From positions 1 through 41,494 of the forward strand of contig JANZZC010000120.1 in NCBI GenBank assembly GCA_026419575.1: a stretch of DNA of 41,494 bases. Reading direction: 5' to 3'. This DNA comes from Thermomicrobium sp. Its GTDB lineage: Bacteria; Chloroflexota; Chloroflexia; Thermomicrobiales; Thermomicrobiaceae. The notes under the pieces were generated by a model. The model was not told the origin of the DNA. It saw nothing but the letters and a program-made list of their open reading frames with translations, and did no database searches. This document shows positions 1,978 through 10,570 of this stretch, one piece after another; the first letter of the stretch is position 1, and each line of letters starts with the position of its first letter. Position numbers and translations under genes: made by a program.

Positions 1978-4626
1978 TCACACGTCGCCTTCGCGCGGAC
2001 CGAGGGCAGCCTGGGCCGCCGCCAGCCGAGCGATCGGCACACGGTAGGGAGATGCCGAGACGTAGTCGAGGCCGACTTCGTGGCAGAAGCGGATGCTCGC
2101 CGGATCCCCCCCGTGCTCGCCGCAGATCCCGAGCTTGATGTCCGGCCGCGTCGCGCGCCCACCGTCCCGCGCGATCTCGATGAGCCGCCCGACGCCCGCT
2201 CGGTCGAGCGTCTGGAAGGGATCGGCCGGGTAGATGCCGTGCTCGAGATAGTACGGCAGGAACCGCCCGGCGTCGTCGCGCGAAATCCCGAACGTCATCT
2301 GCGTCAGGTCGTTCGTACCGAAGCTGAAGAACTCCGCTTCGCGCGCGACCTCGTGCGCGGTCAACGCGGCACGCGGCACCTCGATCATCGTCCCGACCGA
2401 GTACGGAATCTCACGACCCGCTGCGGCGAAGAGTTCGCGCGCGACCCGGTCGATGATCTCGCGCTGCAGCATGAGCTCGCGGACATCGGAGACGAGCGGG
2501 ATCATGATCTCGGGATGCACGTCGATCCCCTCGGACGCGCACTGCAGCGCCGCGCTGAAGATGGCGCGCGCCTGCATCTCGGTGATTTCCGGCGCCGTGA
2601 TCCCCAGGCGGCACCCGCGGTGCCCGAGCATCGGGTTCGCTTCGGTGAGCGCCTGTACCTTGGCGCGGACCGCCTCCGGCGACACTCCCAGCCGGCTCGC
2701 CATCTCCCGGATCTCTTCGTCGTGCTTCGGCAGGAACTCGTGCAGCGGCGGATCGAGCGTGCGGATCGTCACCGGGAAACCGGCCATCGCCTTGAAGATG
2801 CCGAGGAAGTCTTCGCGTTGCATCGGCTCCAGCTTGGCCAGTGCGGCCCGCCGTTCCTCCGGCGTGGTGGCCATGATCATTTCGCGCATCGCCCAGATGC
2901 GGTCTCCCTGGAAGAACATGTGCTCGGTGCGGCAGAGACCGATCCCTTCGGCCCCGAGCTCGCGCGCCTTGGCCGCGTCCTCCGGCGTGTCGGCATTGGC
3001 CCGGACCCGAAGGCGCCGGAACTGGTCGGCCCATGCCAGGAGCTCCGCCAGGTCACCGCCGACGCTCGGCGGAATGGTCGGTACCTCGCCGAGCATCACT
3101 GCCCCGGTGGACCCGTCGATAGTGATCACGTCGCCGCGGCGAACGACGATGTCCCCGACGCGGAACTCCTGCCGCTCGTAATCGACGACGATCGCCGAGC
3201 AACCGACGACGGCCGGCTTCCCGATGCCGCGCGCCACGACCGCCGCATGGCTCGTCATCCCGCCACGGGCCGTCAGGATGCCGCGCGCGGCCAGCATGCC
3301 GTGGAAGTCGTCCGGGGACGTCTCCAGGCGCACGAGGATCACCGCCTCGCCCCGGTCACCCAGCAGCTTCGCTTCGTCGGCATCGAAGACCACTTTGCCG
3401 CTCGCCGCACCGGGGCTCGCCGGCAATCCCTTCGCGCTCGGTTCGCCCTTCCAGGACGGATCGATCATCGGCTGGAGGAGCTGGTCCAGGTGCTCCGGCG
3501 AGACGCGCAGCACGGCTTCCCGCGGTTCGATCAGCCCCTCGTGCACCATATCGACGGCGATCTTGACGGCGGCTCGTCCCGTCCGCTTGCCGGTGCGCGT
3601 CTGCAGCATCCACAGCTTGCCGCGCTCGACCGTGAACTCGAGATCCTGCATGTCGCGGTAGTGCCGCTCCAGACGATCGGCGACCTCGAGCAGCTGTTCG
3701 TAGGCGCCGCGGAGCAGCGGATCGTTCGCCATCTCCTGGATCGGTTGCGGCGTGCGGATACCGGCGACCACGTCCTCGCCCTGCGCGTTCGTCAGGTATT
3801 CACCGAAGATCCCCTTCTCGCCGGTGCTCGGATTCCGGGTGAAGGCGACACCGGTGGCCGAGTCGGGGCCGAGGTTGCCGAAGACCATCGCCTGGACGTT
3901 GGCAGCGGTGCCGAGATCGTGCGGGATTCCATGGGCGTTCCGGTAGTCGATCGCCCGCCGGTTGTTCCACGATTCGAAGACGGCGAGGATCGCCCGCCGC
4001 AGTTGCTCGAACGGGTCCTGGGGGAACTCGGCGCCGGTCGCCTCGCGAACGATCCGCTTGTACGTCTCCACCAACCGCGCGAGCTCCGCCGCCGGAATCT
4101 CGTAGTCCTGGATCACGCCGATCTCGCGCTTGAGCTCGTCGAGCGCGTCCTCGAAGCGTTCGGAGGGGATATCCAGCACGACTTTGCCGAACATCTGGAT
4201 CAACCGGCGGTAGCAGTCGTAGGCGAAGCGCTCGTTCGAGGTCATCGCAGCGAGGCCGCGGACCGTCTCGTCGGTCAGCCCGACGTTGAGGATGGTGTCC
4301 ATCATGCCGGGCATCGAGAACTTGGCGCCGGAACGGACCGAGACGAGCAGTGGCTGCGCCGGATCGCCGAAGCGCCGACCGATCTGCATCTCGATGTCGC
4401 GCAGGCCCTCCAGCACCTCGTCCCACAGTCCCTCGGGGAACTGCCGCCCGCCCTGCAGATAGGCGACGCAGGCGCGCGTCGTCACGGTGAATCCCGGCGG
4501 GACCGGCAAACCGATCCGCGTCATCTCGGCGAGGTTCGCCCCCTTCCCGCCGAGGAGGTCACGCATCTGCGCGTTCCCTTCCCGGAAGAGGTAGACCCAG
4601 CGTCGTCCGGTCGCCACCGTCGTCAT
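1978..4626 (-). CDS. ppdK: Pyruvate, phosphate dikinase
   Basis: Interconverts pyruvate, ATP and phosphate with phosphoenolpyruvate, AMP and diphosphate (EC 2.7.9.1). It is a cytoplasmic enzyme linking glycolysis and gluconeogenesis. The 882-aa length matches the family (about 870-890). The N-terminal ATP-grasp part begins with the GGKGANLAEM loop. The phosphohistidine domain has GGMTSHAAVVARG with the swivelling catalytic His at residue 460. The C-terminal PEP/pyruvate TIM barrel carries GTMIEVPRAAL, FGTNDLTQM and GICGEHGGDP with its catalytic Cys. ATG 4626 is preceded by GGGAGGGAG, which fits better than an upstream in-frame ATG at 4725 lying inside pcrA. It follows pcrA by 73 bp on the same strand and is closed by a hairpin. 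Confidence 0.97.
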   Translation of the reverse strand: MTTVATGRRWVYLFREGNAQMRDLLGGKGANLAEMTRIGLPVPPGFTVTTRACVAYLQGGRQFPEGLWDEVLEGLRDIEMQIGRRFGDPAQPLLVSVRSGAKFSMPGMMDTILNVGLTDETVRGLAAMTSNERFAYDCYRRLIQMFGKVVLDIPSERFEDALDELKREIGVIQDYEIPAAELARLVETYKRIVREATGAEFPQDPFEQLRRAILAVFESWNNRRAIDYRNAHGIPHDLGTAANVQAMVFGNLGPDSATGVAFTRNPSTGEKGIFGEYLTNAQGEDVVAGIRTPQPIQEMANDPLLRGAYEQLLEVADRLERHYRDMQDLEFTVERGKLWMLQTRTGKRTGRAAVKIAVDMVHEGLIEPREAVLRVSPEHLDQLLQPMIDPSWKGEPSAKGLPASPGAASGKVVFDADEAKLLGDRGEAVILVRLETSPDDFHGMLAARGILTARGGMTSHAAVVARGIGKPAVVGCSAIVVDYERQEFRVGDIVVRRGDVITIDGSTGAVMLGEVPTIPPSVGGDLAELLAWADQFRRLRVRANADTPEDAAKARELGAEGIGLCRTEHMFFQGDRIWAMREMIMATTPEERRAALAKLEPMQREDFLGIFKAMAGFPVTIRTLDPPLHEFLPKHDEEIREMASRLGVSPEAVRAKVQALTEANPMLGHRGCRLGITAPEITEMQARAIFSAALQCASEGIDVHPEIMIPLVSDVRELMLQREIIDRVARELFAAAGREIPYSVGTMIEVPRAALTAHEVAREAEFFSFGTNDLTQMTFGISRDDAGRFLPYYLEHGIYPADPFQTLDRAGVGRLIEIARDGGRATRPDIKLGICGEHGGDPASIRFCHEVGLDYVSASPYRVPIARLAAAQAALGPREGDV

Positions 4627-4699: not shown

Positions 4700-7078
4700 C
4701 TACCCGTCGACGACGAGCTTGGCAAGACTCGCGAGCAAGGTCTTCGTGCCGTGCCGCTTGAACTCGACCGTCACCTCTTGATCGCCCGCGCTGTCCCGTA
4801 CCGCCACGACGACTCCGTCGCCGAACCTCGCGTGGAAGACCCGCTGACCCGGGCGGAAGCGCGTGACCGCCGGCGTCGGCGTCGTCCCTGCATCACCGGT
4901 CGACCCACGCTCCGCCAGAATCCCTCTCGGGAACGGCCGCTCCCCGACCGGCAGGCCACGGTTCTCGGCTGGACGCGCCGATCGGCTCGGGCGTTCCGGT
5001 CGCTCGAGGACTTCTTCGGGAAGCGCCTCGAGGAAGTGCGAGGGAACACCGCGTTCCCGCAACCCGAATCGACTCCGGACTTGCGCATAGCTCAGATAGA
5101 GACAGCGCTTCGCCCGCGTGATGCCGACGTAGAAGAGCCGACGTTCCTCCTCGAGCTCCGCCTCGCTCTCGAGCGCCCGCACGTGCGGAAGCAGCCCCTC
5201 CTCGACGCCGATCAAGAACACGACCGGGAACTCGAGTCCCTTCGCCGCATGGAGCGTGAGCAACGTCACCTGATCGCCACCGAACTCGGCCTCGTCGACG
5301 CCCGCGACCAGCGCCGCTTCCTCCAGGAACCGCTCCAACCCCTCCTTCGCCGGGAGCGCGTCGTACCGCTCGAGCACGCTGCGCAGCTGCACGAGGTTCT
5401 CCCAGCGCTCCCGTTCCGTCGGATCGCTCGCCTCGCGATACCGGGCCGCGAGCCCGCTCCGCTCGAGCGCGAGCTCGTAGACGCCGCTCAACGGCTGCAC
5501 CGCGAGCGCACCGCGCAGCCGAACGAGTTCGGACCAGATCTCCCGCAGGCGCTTCTCGGCAGTCGCGGCGAGCACCGGCGGCGCGCAGTCCAGTTCGCCA
5601 GCGAGCGCCAGCAGCGCCTCGGCCGGCGAGCGTCCGACCGCGCTACCCCACCGCTCGAGCTCGCCCACCGTCTTGTCACCGATGCCGCGGCCGAACACCG
5701 TTTCCCGCAGCACCCGCTGCAGACCGAGCCAGTCCTTCGGGTTGGCCAGTACCCGCAAGAGCGCGAGCGCGTCCTTGACCTCCTTGCGCTCGTAGAAGCG
5801 GACACCGCCAACGACCTGGTAGGGAATCTGCGCCCGTACGAGGACCTCCTCGACGGGGCGGCTCTGCGCGTTGATCCGATAGAGAATCGCGATGTCCCGG
5901 TACCGTGCTTCCCCGCGCGCCACGAGCCGGGCGATCTCGCTCACCACCGTCTCCGCCTCGTGTTGCTCGTCCCAGCAGGCCAACAGACGAATCGGTGGCC
6001 CCGGCGGATTGTCCGTCCAGAGCGGGCGCTCGATCCGCTGGCGATTGCGGCGGATCACCGCATCGGCTGCTGCGACGATCTGCGGCGTCGAACGGTAGTT
6101 GCGCCCCAGCCGGATGACCACGGCATCGGGAAAGTCGCGCTGGAACTCCAGGATGTTGCGGATATCGGCCTGGCGCCAACTGTAGATCGATTGGTCGGGA
6201 TCGCCGACCGCGCACAGGTTGCGGTGCGCGCTCGCCAGCTGGCGGACCAGGAGATACTGCAGGTGGTTCGTGTCCTGGTACTCGTCGACCAGGAGGTAGC
6301 GCCAGCGTTCCTGATACCGGGCCAGCAGGTCGGGATCGCGGTCGAACAGTTCGACCGTCATGACGAGGAGGTCGTCGAAATCGACCGCCTGCGAGCGAGC
6401 GAGGAGCGCGGCGTACCGTTCGTAGACCCGGGCAGCGACTTCGTCCCAATAGCTCTGAGCACGCTGGGCGAGCTCGGCCGGGGTCGCGAATGCGTTCTTG
6501 GCCCGGGAGATACGGGCGAGCAAGGCACGCGGCGCGAACCGTTGCGGATCGAGCCCGAGGTCCCGCAACGCCTGCTTGACCACCGCGAGCTGGTCTTCTT
6601 CGTCGTAGATAGCGAACGTCGGATCGAGACCGATCCGACCTCCGTCGCGCCGCAACACCCGTGCGCAGACGCTGTGGAACGTACCGGCCTGCACCAGCGT
6701 CGCCGGCTCCCGCCCGAGGAGCAGCTCAAGCCGCTCGCGGACCTCGCGGGCCGCCTTGTTGGTGAACGTCACGGCGAGCACTTGCCACGGCCTGGCTCGC
6801 CCGCTCGCGATGAGATAGGCGACCCGATAGGTCAGCACCCGTGTCTTGCCGCTGCCCGGGCCGGCCACCACGAGGACCGGCCCGTCGGTCGTGGTGACCG
6901 CCCGGCGCTGGTCGGGATCGAGATGCGCGAGCAACGCCTCGGGATCGCCATCGTACGGCCCCGTGCCGCCGGACGTCGCGTCGGGCTCCGGTCGATCCGT
7001 CAGGAAGCTCCCCTCGGCCGATCCTCGCGCTGCCGCCGGCGAGCCCGGCTGTCTCCACTCTCCTCGCGCTTCCGTCAT
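4700..7078 (-). CDS. pcrA: ATP-dependent DNA helicase PcrA/UvrD
   Basis: A superfamily 1A 3'-to-5' DNA helicase for nucleotide-excision and mismatch repair and for removing recombinase or polymerase from DNA. The 792-aa protein shows Walker A AGPGSGKT at 72-79, motif Ia TFTNKAARE, motif II VDEYQDT, motif III GDPDQSIYSWR, motif IV NYRS, motif V LHAAKGLEFP and motif VI YVGITRAK. The C-terminus ends in a small beta-rich tail (GQRVFHARFGDG...VEFKRHG) like the PcrA Tudor domain that contacts RNA polymerase. About 50 residues of low-complexity sequence precede the first helicase block, so the true start could be slightly internal. Transcription diverges from the CoA-transferase operon. Confidence 0.96.
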   Translation of the reverse strand: MTEARGEWRQPGSPAAARGSAEGSFLTDRPEPDATSGGTGPYDGDPEALLAHLDPDQRRAVTTTDGPVLVVAGPGSGKTRVLTYRVAYLIASGRARPWQVLAVTFTNKAAREVRERLELLLGREPATLVQAGTFHSVCARVLRRDGGRIGLDPTFAIYDEEDQLAVVKQALRDLGLDPQRFAPRALLARISRAKNAFATPAELAQRAQSYWDEVAARVYERYAALLARSQAVDFDDLLVMTVELFDRDPDLLARYQERWRYLLVDEYQDTNHLQYLLVRQLASAHRNLCAVGDPDQSIYSWRQADIRNILEFQRDFPDAVVIRLGRNYRSTPQIVAAADAVIRRNRQRIERPLWTDNPPGPPIRLLACWDEQHEAETVVSEIARLVARGEARYRDIAILYRINAQSRPVEEVLVRAQIPYQVVGGVRFYERKEVKDALALLRVLANPKDWLGLQRVLRETVFGRGIGDKTVGELERWGSAVGRSPAEALLALAGELDCAPPVLAATAEKRLREIWSELVRLRGALAVQPLSGVYELALERSGLAARYREASDPTERERWENLVQLRSVLERYDALPAKEGLERFLEEAALVAGVDEAEFGGDQVTLLTLHAAKGLEFPVVFLIGVEEGLLPHVRALESEAELEEERRLFYVGITRAKRCLYLSYAQVRSRFGLRERGVPSHFLEALPEEVLERPERPSRSARPAENRGLPVGERPFPRGILAERGSTGDAGTTPTPAVTRFRPGQRVFHARFGDGVVVAVRDSAGDQEVTVEFKRHGTKTLLASLAKLVVDG

Positions 7079-7101
7079 ACCGTGCGCTCCCTACGCGCCC
7101 G

Positions 7102-7107
7102 ATTCTA
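7102..7107 (-). promoter_or_regulatory. Possible -10 box for pcrA
   Basis: TAGAAT read on the minus strand lies 24 bases upstream of the pcrA ATG. No good -35 box is seen at the expected distance, so this is a weak suggestion only. Confidence 0.3.
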
Positions 7108-7180
7108 CCCCGGCGCACCGTTCGCCTGAGCATACCCGAGTGGCGCTGCCACGACCCCAGCGAGCGTGCGCTGCTCGTCC

Positions 7181-7209
7181 TTGACAGGCAGACGCTCCCT
7201 TCGTATGAT
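7181..7209 (+). promoter_or_regulatory. Sigma-70-type promoter of the CoA-transferase/UGSC operon
   Basis: TTGACA (7181-7186), a 17-base spacer, then TATGAT (7204-7209) is close to the housekeeping consensus. Transcription would start near 7216, leaving a leader of about 38 bases. That leader contains a short AT-rich palindrome (TTAATCCTTAA, 7226-7236) that could be an operator; this last point is inference. Confidence 0.85.
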
Positions 7210-7253
7210 CGTCCTAGTCGCCGAGTTAATCCTTAAACGGAAAGACCGGTGCG

Positions 7254-7949
7254 ATGGACAGAGTCGTAGCGACCTGTGACGAGGCTGTCGCCGATATCCC
7301 GAACGGCGCGTCGATCATGATCGGCGGGTTCGGTCCGCCCGGCATTCCGGTGAATCTCGTCCGGGCGCTGCGCCGGCGCAAGCTGCGCGACCTCGTCCTG
7401 ATCTACTGCGGCGGCGGCACCGAAGAGGACGGCATCGGGGGACTGATCGCCGACGGGGCCGTCCGGAAGCTGATCTCTTCCTACCCCACCCATCCGGGAG
7501 CGACGGCTGTCCGCGAGAAGTACCTCGCGGGGGAACTCGAACTCGAGGTGCTCCCACAAGGGACGTTCGTCGAACGGATCCGGGCTGGTGGTGCGGGACT
7601 GGGCGGGTTCTACACGCCCACGGGTGTGGGGACGGAGCTGGCGGCCGGCAAGGAAGTCCGGGTGATCGACGGTCGCCCGTACGTCTTCGAGTTTCCCCTG
7701 CGCGCCGATTACGCTTTCATCAAGGCGTACCGGGCCGATCGCTGGGGTAACCTCGTGTACCGGCGGACGATGCGCAACTTCAATCCGATCATGGCGACCG
7801 CGGCACGGATCGTGATCGCCGAGGTCGACGAGATCGTGCCGGTCGGCGCCCTTTCCCCCGAAGAGATCGAAACGCCGTGCATCTTCGTCGATCGCGTCGT
7901 CGAAGCACCGCGCGACTGGGTCCGTCGCGCACCGCCGGACGAACGGTGA
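7254..7949 (+). CDS. 3-oxoacid-type CoA transferase, subunit A
   Basis: Alpha subunit of a two-subunit class I CoA transferase that moves CoA between an acyl-CoA (often succinyl- or acetyl-CoA) and a 3-oxo or short-chain acid. At 231 aa it has the usual length. Family blocks include the N-terminal IMIGGFGPPGIPVNL, the YCGGGTEEDG segment, GGFYTPTGVGTELAAGKE and the YRADRWGNLVYR-type motif near residue 155-170. It is the first gene behind a strong promoter and 11 bp ahead of subunit B. AtoD and ScoA are the nearest described types. The acyl acceptor cannot be read from sequence, so no gene symbol is given. Confidence 0.93.
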   Translation: MDRVVATCDEAVADIPNGASIMIGGFGPPGIPVNLVRALRRRKLRDLVLIYCGGGTEEDGIGGLIADGAVRKLISSYPTHPGATAVREKYLAGELELEVLPQGTFVERIRAGGAGLGGFYTPTGVGTELAAGKEVRVIDGRPYVFEFPLRADYAFIKAYRADRWGNLVYRRTMRNFNPIMATAARIVIAEVDEIVPVGALSPEEIETPCIFVDRVVEAPRDWVRRAPPDER

Positions 7950-7960
7950 GGTGGGAACCT

Positions 7961-8653
7961 ATGCCGTTGACGCGCGAAGGTATCGCCTACCGGATCGCGC
8001 AGGATCTTCCGGACGGGAGCTTCGTCAACCTCGGCGTCGGCATCCCCTCGCTGGTGGCACGCTTCATTCCGCCCGGACGGACGATCCTCATCCATAGCGA
8101 GAACGGTATCCTCGGCGCCGGGCCGAAAGCGCCGCCCGGCCAGGAAGATCCGGACCTGGTGAACGCCAACGGCGACTTCGTCACGCTGGTGCCCGGCGCG
8201 AGTCTGTTCGATCACGCGCTCTCGTTCTCTATCATCCGCGGCGGGCACCTCACGCACGCGGTGCTGGGCGCACTGCAGGTGTCCCGCTGCGGCGATCTCG
8301 CGAACTGGCGCGTGCCCGGGCCACGCGTGCCGGGGGTCGGCGGCGCGATGGACATCGCTGTCGGAGCCCAGCAGGTCTGGGTAGCGACGACGCACACGAC
8401 GGACAGCGGCGAACCGAAAATCGTCGACACGTGCACGTACCCGCTCACGGCAGCACGGTGCGTACGCCGGATCTACACCGATCTCGCGGTCCTTTCGGTC
8501 GAGGGCGAGCGACTGCTCTTGGAGGAAATCGCGCCGGGCGTCACGGTCGAGGAAGTCGTGGCGCGCACGGGAGCGATGCTGACGCTCCCGGCGACCGTCC
8601 GCACGATGGATATCCCCACCGAGTACGCTGGCGCATCCTTGCTCGCCCCGTGA
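7961..8653 (+). CDS. 3-oxoacid-type CoA transferase, subunit B
   Basis: Beta subunit carrying the catalytic glutamate that forms the enzyme-CoA thioester. In this 230-aa protein the glutamate is E47 in HSENGILGAG, the family signature. Other blocks are VNLGVGIP near the N-terminus, GGHLTHAVLGALQV, GVGGAMDIAVGA and a C-terminal LTLPATV segment. ATG 7961 follows GTGGGA. The 11-bp gap to subunit A indicates translational coupling and a heteromeric enzyme. The context (UGSC protein and three SDRs downstream) suggests activation or thiolysis-side handling of a keto acid in a catabolic route; the substrate is unknown. Confidence 0.93.
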   Translation: MPLTREGIAYRIAQDLPDGSFVNLGVGIPSLVARFIPPGRTILIHSENGILGAGPKAPPGQEDPDLVNANGDFVTLVPGASLFDHALSFSIIRGGHLTHAVLGALQVSRCGDLANWRVPGPRVPGVGGAMDIAVGAQQVWVATTHTTDSGEPKIVDTCTYPLTAARCVRRIYTDLAVLSVEGERLLLEEIAPGVTVEEVVARTGAMLTLPATVRTMDIPTEYAGASLLAP

Positions 8654-8707
8654 AGCAGCGGACGGAACGACGGGCTGAAAGCAGCGGAAAGGAGTGGACC
8701 GGACACG

Positions 8708-8977
8708 ATGAGTGCCTCGCCAGCAGTCGTGCAAGAGATCGATCGGGCGCTCGACCGGATCCGTGCCGGGCTCGCGCCGGACGGGTTCGAGCTGCGGGTC
8801 GAGCGCGTGACGGAAGACGGCGTCGTGGAACTCGTGCTGCAGGCGCTTCCTGACGCCTGTCTCGATTGCCTCGTGCCGGACCAGTTGCTCCACGCGATGC
8901 TGCAGCAAGCGATCTCCCCCGTCTATCCCGCATTGCGCGAGGTTCGGCTTGAGAAGCGACTCCCGGAGGAGGGTTGA
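8708..8977 (+). CDS. Small NifU C-domain-like protein with CxxC
   Basis: An 89-aa protein whose pattern resembles the NifU C-terminal (iron-sulfur scaffold) fold. There is an N-terminal helix with IDRALDRIRAGLAPDGFEL, then a beta segment with VVELVLQALPDACLDCLVP containing C-x-x-C, then a helix and a final beta strand. Typical NifU domains read like DGG...CGSC; here DGF and CLDC occupy those places, so cluster binding is plausible but not shown. The dicysteine could instead act as a dithiol redox pair. The start ATG 8708 has GGAAAGGAG upstream. It sits 54 bp after the CoA transferase and 2 bp before the UGSC selenoprotein gene, whose ribosome-binding site lies inside it, so translation is coupled. 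Confidence 0.65.
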   Translation: MSASPAVVQEIDRALDRIRAGLAPDGFELRVERVTEDGVVELVLQALPDACLDCLVPDQLLHAMLQQAISPVYPALREVRLEKRLPEEG

Positions 8978-8979
8978 CC

Positions 8980-9549
8980 ATGCCGGTGCTCGTCGATCCA
9001 ACTGGGCAGACCGGACTCGCCACGAAAGCTCGGGCCGCCCGCACGCGGCGCTCGCTGCGTGGCGCGCGCGTCTGCCTCATCGACAACGGAAAGAAGAACG
9101 CCGATCTCCTGCTCCGCGCCATCGGTGACCTGTTGCGCGAGCGGTACGGCGTCGCCGAAGTCGTGTTGCACCGCAAGCCGAACGCGTCGGTGCCGATCGA
9201 CGCTTCGGCCGTCGCCGAGCTCGCGGAGCGCTGCGACTTCGCGATCGCTGCCGTCGGCGACTGAGGGTCCTGCAGCGCGGCCAGTGTGGCCGATGCGATC
9301 CGCTTCGAGGAGGTCGGGGTCCCGGCGGCACCGATCATCACCGAGGTCTTCCGGACGACGGCGGAGGCGATGGCCCAGACGCAGGGGATGCCAGGCTATC
9401 CCTATGCGGTCATCCCGCACCCGATCAGCAGCTTGAGTCCGGAGGAAGTACGCCAGCGAGCCGAGCAGGTATTGCCCGAGGTGCTGCGGCTCCTGGGTGT
9501 CGAGGAAGCGACCGGGGAGGAACGCCATGAGCGTGCAGCGGACGGCTGA
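8980..9549 (+). CDS. UGSC-family selenoprotein (in-frame TGA read as Sec95)
   Basis: A 189-aa member of the UGSC family, named for a selenocysteine-Gly-Ser-Cys motif, if the TGA at 9262-9264 is read as selenocysteine. Translation from ATG 8980 (ribosome-binding site GGAGGAGGG) gives a flavodoxin- or thioredoxin-like alternation (VCLIDNGKKNADLLL, then CDFAIAAVGD). The TGA codon follows, and then GSCSAASVADAIRFEEVGVP and GMPGYPYAVIPHPIS in the same frame to a real stop at 9547-9549. The codon before and after the TGA, the motif spacing and the conserved C-terminal half all fit the family. A stem-loop just after the TGA fits a bacterial SECIS. The 3' end overlaps the next gene by 23 bases. The family function is not established; a redox role at the Sec and C98 is inferred. 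Recoding depends on selABCD elsewhere in the genome. Confidence 0.88.
9271..9303 (+). promoter_or_regulatory. Candidate bacterial SECIS element
   Basis: Directly after the UGSC TGA, CGGCC (9278-9282) pairs with GGCCG (9288-9292) around a 5-base loop AGTGT. A lower stem can continue with C9276-G9295 and G9275-C9296 across a small internal loop. The loop begins 18 bases after the TGA and has G as its second base. Both agree with the usual bacterial SECIS model (loop roughly 16-37 bases from UGA, G in the first two loop positions). The fold was drawn by eye without energy calculation. Confidence 0.6.
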
Positions 9550-10570
9550 ACCGACGCTGGAGGCCGTGCGGCACGCCCGCGAGGCGATCGAATACTGCTA
9601 CGAGCGCGGTTGGACGGATGGCCTGCCCGTCGTTCCGCCCGCCGAGGAATTTGTCGAGGAGTTCCTGGCGCAGGTCGACCGCGACCCGGACGAGGTCGTC
9701 ATCGAACAGGAACACCTCGGGCGCAAGTGCACGGTCCGTCTCGCGGCAGCCAATGCTGTCATGGCCGGCTGCCGGCCCGAGTACTTCCCGGTCGTCCTCG
9801 CCGCCCTGGAAGCCTTGAACAAGCTCCCGGGCAGCCGGGGATTGCTGCAGAGCACGACCGGACAAGCGGTGCTGGTGATCGTCAACGGACCGATCCGCCG
9901 ACGGCTCGGGTTCAACGCGGCGGACAACGTCTTCAGCCCCGGTGATCGGCCGAACTTGACGGTCGGCCGAGCGATCCGCTTGGTGATCATGAACGCGCTC
10001 GGCATCCGCCCGCACGAGTTCGACCAGTCGACGCAGGGACAGCCCGGCAAACTGAGTCTCTGCATCGCCGAGAATGAAGAGGAGAGTCCCTGGGATCCGC
10101 TGCACGTCGAACGCGGCTTTGCCCGGGAGGAAAGCACGGTCACGGTCGGCTTCGTGCGCGGGACGATGCAGGTCGAGCAGCGCGATTCCAAGCAACCCGA
10201 GGTGATCCTGGAGACGATCGCCGACTCGATGTCCTACGCCGGGACGTACTTCCCGACGCCCCGCGGGCACGCCGGCATCGTCGTCCTCGGTCCCGAGCAC
10301 GCACAGTTCATCGCCGAAGCGGGGTGGAGCAAGGCTCGCGCCCGCGAGTACCTCTGGGAGCACTTCGGGCGACCGGCTGGCGTGCTCCGGCGTCTCGCCA
10401 AAGACGCGTTGCTCGATCCTTCCCTTCCGGACGACGCGTTCGTCCGCTTCGCGCACGCTCCCGAGACGATCCTGCTCGTCGTCGCCGGAGCCCGCAACGC
10501 CGGGATCTCGACCGTCTGCCCGACCTTCATCGGTCAGCAAGTCACCGTGCCGATTCGCGGGAAAGCATGA
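9527..10570 (+). CDS. Conserved partner protein of the UGSC selenoprotein
   Basis: A 347-aa cytoplasmic protein without signal peptide or membrane helices. The N-terminal block YERGWTDGLPVVPP and the following AAANAVMAGCRPEYFPVVL segment are distinctive. To my knowledge proteins with this signature recur next to UGSC genes, but I cannot verify that here. Cysteines occur at EYCYE, GRKCTV, MAGC, LSLC and STVC; the MAGC and STVC positions look the most constrained. The biochemical role is unknown. ATG 9527 has an excellent GGGGAGG six bases upstream and overlaps the end of the UGSC gene by 23 bases, so the two are translationally coupled and probably act together, perhaps as subunits or as enzyme and reductant. 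Confidence 0.75.
   Translation: MSVQRTAEPTLEAVRHAREAIEYCYERGWTDGLPVVPPAEEFVEEFLAQVDRDPDEVVIEQEHLGRKCTVRLAAANAVMAGCRPEYFPVVLAALEALNKLPGSRGLLQSTTGQAVLVIVNGPIRRRLGFNAADNVFSPGDRPNLTVGRAIRLVIMNALGIRPHEFDQSTQGQPGKLSLCIAENEEESPWDPLHVERGFAREESTVTVGFVRGTMQVEQRDSKQPEVILETIADSMSYAGTYFPTPRGHAGIVVLGPEHAQFIAEAGWSKARAREYLWEHFGRPAGVLRRLAKDALLDPSLPDDAFVRFAHAPETILLVVAGARNAGISTVCPTFIGQQVTVPIRGKA

Follow-up and report, generated by a model that had tools for sequence, protein, structure and literature searches.

Does a TGA that interrupts an otherwise open reading frame in Thermomicrobium specify selenocysteine (Sec), and what could the resulting protein do? The frame occupies 8980-9549 of the window, by which the whole analysed stretch of 41,494 nucleotides is meant, and an earlier note on this DNA had taken it for a UGSC selenoprotein of unknown function. 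UGSC selenoproteins were described from metagenomes by 2008 and curated families exist (PMC2398784, PMC13188914), and UGSC is among the commonest environmental selenoprotein families, the GOS survey having returned 255 sequences (PMC2398784). Some UGSC selenoproteins are reported to use a different Sec codon (PMC5330540).

The UGSC gene and its selenocysteine codon

The frame holds a single internal TGA, codon 95, which is followed directly by Gly-Ser-Cys, and it closes with a terminal TGA at 9547-9549 (Table 1). The read-through protein matches the UGSC profile PF24696 with 209.2 bits (cut-off 25) over profile positions 2-171 of 172, and NCBIfam NF041046 with 164.5 bits (cut-off 125), and both matches cover the protein on either side of the TGA. 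The motif U95 G96 S97 C98 stands at the family position, and in an alignment of 16 UGSC members the U/C, G and C columns are invariant and the S column nearly so. The sequence and the full-length family match thus confirm that the frame is open except for a TGA at the U of U-G-S-C, as the earlier note had described it.

Among 158 genomes of the class, a UGSC search returned seven matches over the cut-off and one weak match, and a TGA lies inside the match in all eight genomes. The gene is present in five of the seven sampled Thermomicrobium genomes (source genome included), and every one of these five, Thermomicrobium sp. CFH 73360 among them, has TGA at the Sec codon. Synonymous divergence (dS) among the five genes is about 0.5-2, the closest pair excepted, while dN is low on both sides of the TGA and no higher after it than before; the differences after the TGA fall mainly at third codon positions, for example 9/7/43 at positions 1/2/3. 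These substitution patterns indicate that the gene is under purifying selection both before and after the TGA. Furthermore, they bear out the earlier argument that a chance stop mutation would be improbable; the part past the TGA is conserved in close relatives.

The DNA had been guessed to come from Chloroflexota, and the GTDB classification agrees; Thermomicrobium sp. CFH 73360 and bacteria HR27 and HR28 are its nearest relatives with a name. The claim of a selenoprotein in this lineage stands as well, although Sec use as such is not new there, since many relatives in the order carry tRNA-Sec.

Table 1. Coordinates of the features discussed, in the window unless another locus is named.
Feature	Position	Strand	Basis
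CoA-transferase subunit A	7254..7949	+	TIGR02429 283.5 bits; order kept in congeners
CoA-transferase subunit B	7877..8653	+	TIGR02428 287.3 bits; order kept in congeners
NifU-like protein, 89 aa, CLDC motif	8708..8977	+	PF01106 20.5 bits, below cut-off 27
UGSC selenoprotein gene, 189 aa with Sec95	8980..9549	+	PF24696, NF041046, TGA conservation, low dN/high dS
UGA, selenocysteine codon	9262..9264	+	sequence; TGA conserved in relatives, TGC in Cys forms
SECIS-type apical stem-loop, six pairs, GUG loop 9284-9286	9278..9292	+	pairing, covariation, codon identity
Constant partner, 347 aa, family-less	9527..10570	+	beside UGSC in all loci; fusions
Putative selC integration-site region of a congener	L115 (G121:C33) 216-277, 7918-9357, 9411-9504

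A SECIS-type hairpin downstream of the UGA

Bacterial SECIS elements are recognised as a hairpin just past the UGA whose small apical loop has a G near its start, and this arrangement is found here, with the hairpin beginning 13 nt and its GUG loop 19 nt downstream of the UGA. The six apical pairs are kept in 100% of 16 distinct sequences, including proteobacterial Sec forms. Three of the pairs are changed on both sides, and these double compensatory changes all belong to one split, Thermomicrobium versus Proteobacteria, which makes them one comparison over three pairs with few independent events. The covariation score was reached by none of 500 shuffles, and when the structure was slid, no more than 50% of cells were paired. 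Similarly, the genus shares seven consecutive identical codons (codons 100-106) at the expected SECIS apical stem (permutation p 0.004). When the region was recoded synonymously, 16% of the versions were as stable and 6.5% retained the six pairs, which makes the hairpin only mildly unusual by this measure. The folding energy of the region is unremarkable against dinucleotide shuffles (z +1.0), and the SECIS claim is therefore based on covariation and codon identity.

Selenocysteine machinery in the source genome

The earlier note had proposed a search of the same genome for selA, selB, selC and selD, which gave three of the four genes in full or truncated form and the fourth as a partial copy. 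The assembly comprises 2.7 Mb in 174 contigs and is 90.9% complete. It contains selB (contig C154, 368 bits), selA (C66, 348 bits, truncated by the contig end) and selD (C17, L026, 358 bits); the last has an in-frame TGA within ASCAGUAGK, and the selenophosphate synthetase SelD is probably itself a selenoprotein. Contig C66, which cuts selA, starts with AGATGTGTATAAGAGACAG (L020 1-19), a Nextera mosaic end that was not trimmed from the assembly.

No intact selC turned up among the 174 contigs. A partial copy with anticodon UCA, which starts at the anticodon arm and includes the 3' end, lies at C18:17862-17931 (L113), and the 5' arm, looked for in the rest of the genome, had chance-like matches only. 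Taken by itself the tRNA-Sec model is misleading here, its best over-cut-off match in this genome being tRNA-Ser(GGA). Congeners have an intact selC, and in one of them (G121) an integrase gene adjoins it, with a partial selC copy of 62 bp at a distance of 9.1 kb. In the source genome, the sequence 3' of the partial copy resembles the selC flank of another congener (G122, L043), and the opposite flank is 2.1 kb of unrelated DNA that runs to the contig end. In Thermomicrobium, selC has the look of an integration site. The partial copy probably marks the distal end of an element inserted in selC, which would account for its truncation, and the intact gene would then lie in an assembly gap beside that element.

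Given the TGA kept in five of five genes, the two-sided purifying selection, the SECIS-type covariation and the presence of selA, selB and a Sec-containing selD, it is close to certain that 8980-9549 encodes a true UGSC-family selenoprotein. That a Cys-type gene has instead gained the TGA by nonsense mutation or through a sequencing error, a reading to which the lack of an intact selC in the assembly lends some support, is scarcely credible and was dropped, because the TGA is conserved together with the downstream frame in five genomes including CFH 73360, dS rises to about 2 while dN past the TGA stays low, the hairpin covaries and selA, selB and selD are in the genome.

A constant partner and a conserved neighbourhood

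The gene that follows encodes a partner which matches nothing in Pfam or NCBIfam. The two genes overlap by 23 nt, and translation of the partner may therefore depend on ribosomes that pass the UGA. A homologue of the partner stands beside UGSC in 24 of 24 genome loci and six of six plasmid loci, 30 of 30 overall, and these include close kin, the independent number being smaller than 30. The loci span Thermomicrobium, Alpha- and Betaproteobacteria, Actinomycetota and haloarchaea. The partner is mostly downstream of UGSC and is upstream in Arthrobacter, Variovorax and Roseovarius.

The two proteins are also found fused. In one locus (L038) a single frame encodes both UGSC and partner, and L064 and L081 likewise hold UGSC-like Sec sequences joined to partner-like ones. 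A UGSC/Unknown_1 fusion in the GOS study likewise joins UGSC to a second conserved domain (PMC2398784), and at a guess Unknown_1 could be the 347-aa partner. In both L064 (4505-5923 with 5920-7571) and L081 (488-2230 with 2284-3436) the fused gene, with a TGA of its own, stands immediately ahead of a separate UGSC and partner pair, so that two forms of the system lie in tandem.

A second kind of fusion concerns the NifU-like protein, whose gene directly precedes UGSC in congeners as well. The UGSC protein of Arthrobacter carries a NifU-like domain at its C-terminus (PF01106, 27.2 bits), and in a single BLASTP comparison this domain is homologous to the NifU-like protein of the window (E 4e-7). 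The latter is a probable third component of the system. Neither the constant, sometimes fused partner nor the correspondence between the NifU-like gene and the Arthrobacter domain was found stated elsewhere.

Throughout the genus the order is CoA transferase A, CoA transferase B, NifU-like, UGSC and partner, then short-chain dehydrogenases. Carboxylate-uptake proteins and CoA transferases are found near many UGSC loci, and tripartite tricarboxylate transporter binding proteins near most of the proteobacterial ones. The tripartite tricarboxylate binding protein family is very large in Burkholderiales, so its members are a weak clue here, and the CoA transferases, also common genes, are another. 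In Arthrobacter (with trxA), Variovorax and Roseovarius a thioredoxin reductase gene (trxB) lies near the UGSC-partner pair; within the flanks seen, it is beside plasmid Cys forms only and beside no Sec locus. No earlier mention of this association was found.

Compared with the known UGSC family (PF24696/NF041046, the 'UGSC-containing protein' of GOS), the Thermomicrobium gene is alike in its full-length match, its Sec at the U position, its Sec and Cys forms and its SECIS-type hairpin. Nothing essential differs, and the cluster adds the NifU-like gene and the CoA transferase. The selenoprotein is of an already known kind, and the gene is a new UGSC member in Thermomicrobium.

Homology to glycine reductase selenoprotein B

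Eight of 16 UGSC proteins match the GrdB profile TIGR01917 (best E 3.1e-6), and the matches cover profile positions 332-407 of 431, which is the Sec region. A profile comparison of the UGSC and GrdB alignments gave a probability of 94.9 and an E of 4e-8, with the Sec-Gly pairs aligned. The matches come from relatives only; the UGSC protein of the window has none to the GrdB models at E 10. Taken together, the profiles indicate that the Sec region of UGSC is homologous to the Sec-bearing end of glycine reductase selenoprotein B. A term search of the accessible literature returned only surveys naming both families and no statement of a relation between UGSC and GrdB or glycine reductase.

The Sec region shared with GrdB (PF07355/TIGR01917) and PrdB consists of UxxC, then a GIP-x-I strand and a P/HP motif. 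Sec incorporation is common to these systems, and thioredoxin genes near some UGSC relatives are a further likeness. In contrast, UGSC is without most of the N-terminal part of GrdB and reaches at best 26 bits against the full-length GrdB cut-off of 602. No PF07355 match was found in the source genome and no Grd subunit genes were recognised among the UGSC neighbours, and, unlike the components of glycine and proline reductase, the partner resembles no known family.

The AlphaFold model of UGSC (mean pLDDT 86.5) is an alpha/beta sandwich with the Sec just before helix 96-111, and in fold searches it was matched best by flavodoxin-like, receiver and similar folds (Foldseek E 3.6e-4; Z of about 9-11 at best). 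This predicted arrangement is very common and says little about function. For the partner, a model of moderate confidence (pLDDT 74) gave nothing significant, with best E values of 0.02-0.06 and Z at most 5.1. A sequence search among solved structures for relatives of UGSC, the partner and the GrdB Sec region found none.

A proposed reductase and its alternatives

The 'unknown function' of the earlier note can be narrowed by the GrdB homology, the gene neighbours and the fusions. The overall proposal, to which a probability of about 0.5 is given, joins a true selenoprotein to a thioredoxin-linked reductase complex acting on an organic acid. SelA, SelB, SelD and tRNA-Sec would decode UGA 9262 as Sec, directed by the downstream hairpin. 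In a small reductase, UGSC would be the subunit with the catalytic selenol, the partner the putative substrate-binding part and the NifU-like CxxC protein a possible electron or metal carrier. The selenolate might attack or reduce a small carboxylic acid or derivative, with both the substrate class and the direction of the reaction being presumptive, and a selenenyl-sulphide with the Cys of U-x-x-C would then form. Thioredoxin, the presumed reductant, and thioredoxin reductase would reset the enzyme, and the adjacent CoA transferase may pass the product on to CoA-thioester metabolism. More broadly, and tentatively, UGSC, partner and NifU-like protein could constitute an undescribed reductase on an organic acid, a minimal cousin of glycine and proline reductase that thermophilic and aerobic bacteria share with haloarchaea, using Sec or Cys according to lineage.

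The carboxylate metabolism genes nearby would also suit a non-reductive enzyme, a lyase, hydrolase or isomerase working on an organic acid, with Sec as the nucleophile and with a partner distantly related to fumarase or cyclic amide hydrolases. Fumarate hydratases and cyclic amide hydrolases are indeed the top fold matches of the partner; however, all fall below significance (E > 0.01), and the trxA and trxB neighbours together with the GrdB homology point to redox chemistry, which leaves this function unlikely. It is improbable, too, that UGSC is, as suggested by the GOS authors, a generic thioredoxin-like thiol oxidoreductase that reduces peroxides or disulphides, and that its neighbours do not make one enzyme. 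U-x-x-C is a usual redox motif, but the UGSC model is flavodoxin-like or receiver-like with no thioredoxin fold among the matches listed, the sequence homology is to GrdB, and the constant partner and the fusions argue for one enzyme.

The part worth following is this functional frame. The constant partner, the two kinds of fusion and the GrdB homology together make a testable enzyme complex of a UGSC family that has no assigned function.

Sec and Cys forms among relatives

Among 24 relatives from a genome-contig search, the site is TGA in 22 and TGC in two (Sphingomonadales, Sphingobium); one locus (L082) has UGAC in place of UGSC. Plasmid UGSC genes have Cys in Natrinema, Arthrobacter, Variovorax and Roseovarius and TGA in Acidovorax and Paracoccus. 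The comparison with Cys forms that the earlier note had suggested places Cys at the TGA position in two genome relatives and four plasmids, and its statement that the family holds both Sec and Cys forms proves correct. The Thermomicrobium branch has 30-38% identity to proteobacterial members, and the UGSC tree gave no resolved position for it and hence no direction for the Sec/Cys change. The UGSC contig of G073, 'Chloroflexi bacterium Tous12m' (L066, L037), groups with Burkholderiales loci at a very short tree distance and is probably mis-binned.

The Cys forms in cultivated Sphingobium wenxiniae, Arthrobacter and Roseovarius make the system accessible without selenium genetics. The conjugative IncP plasmid p2-T1 of Acidovorax carries a TGA-type UGSC gene (L121 7905-8504), which is annotated as a short hypothetical protein stopping at the TGA.
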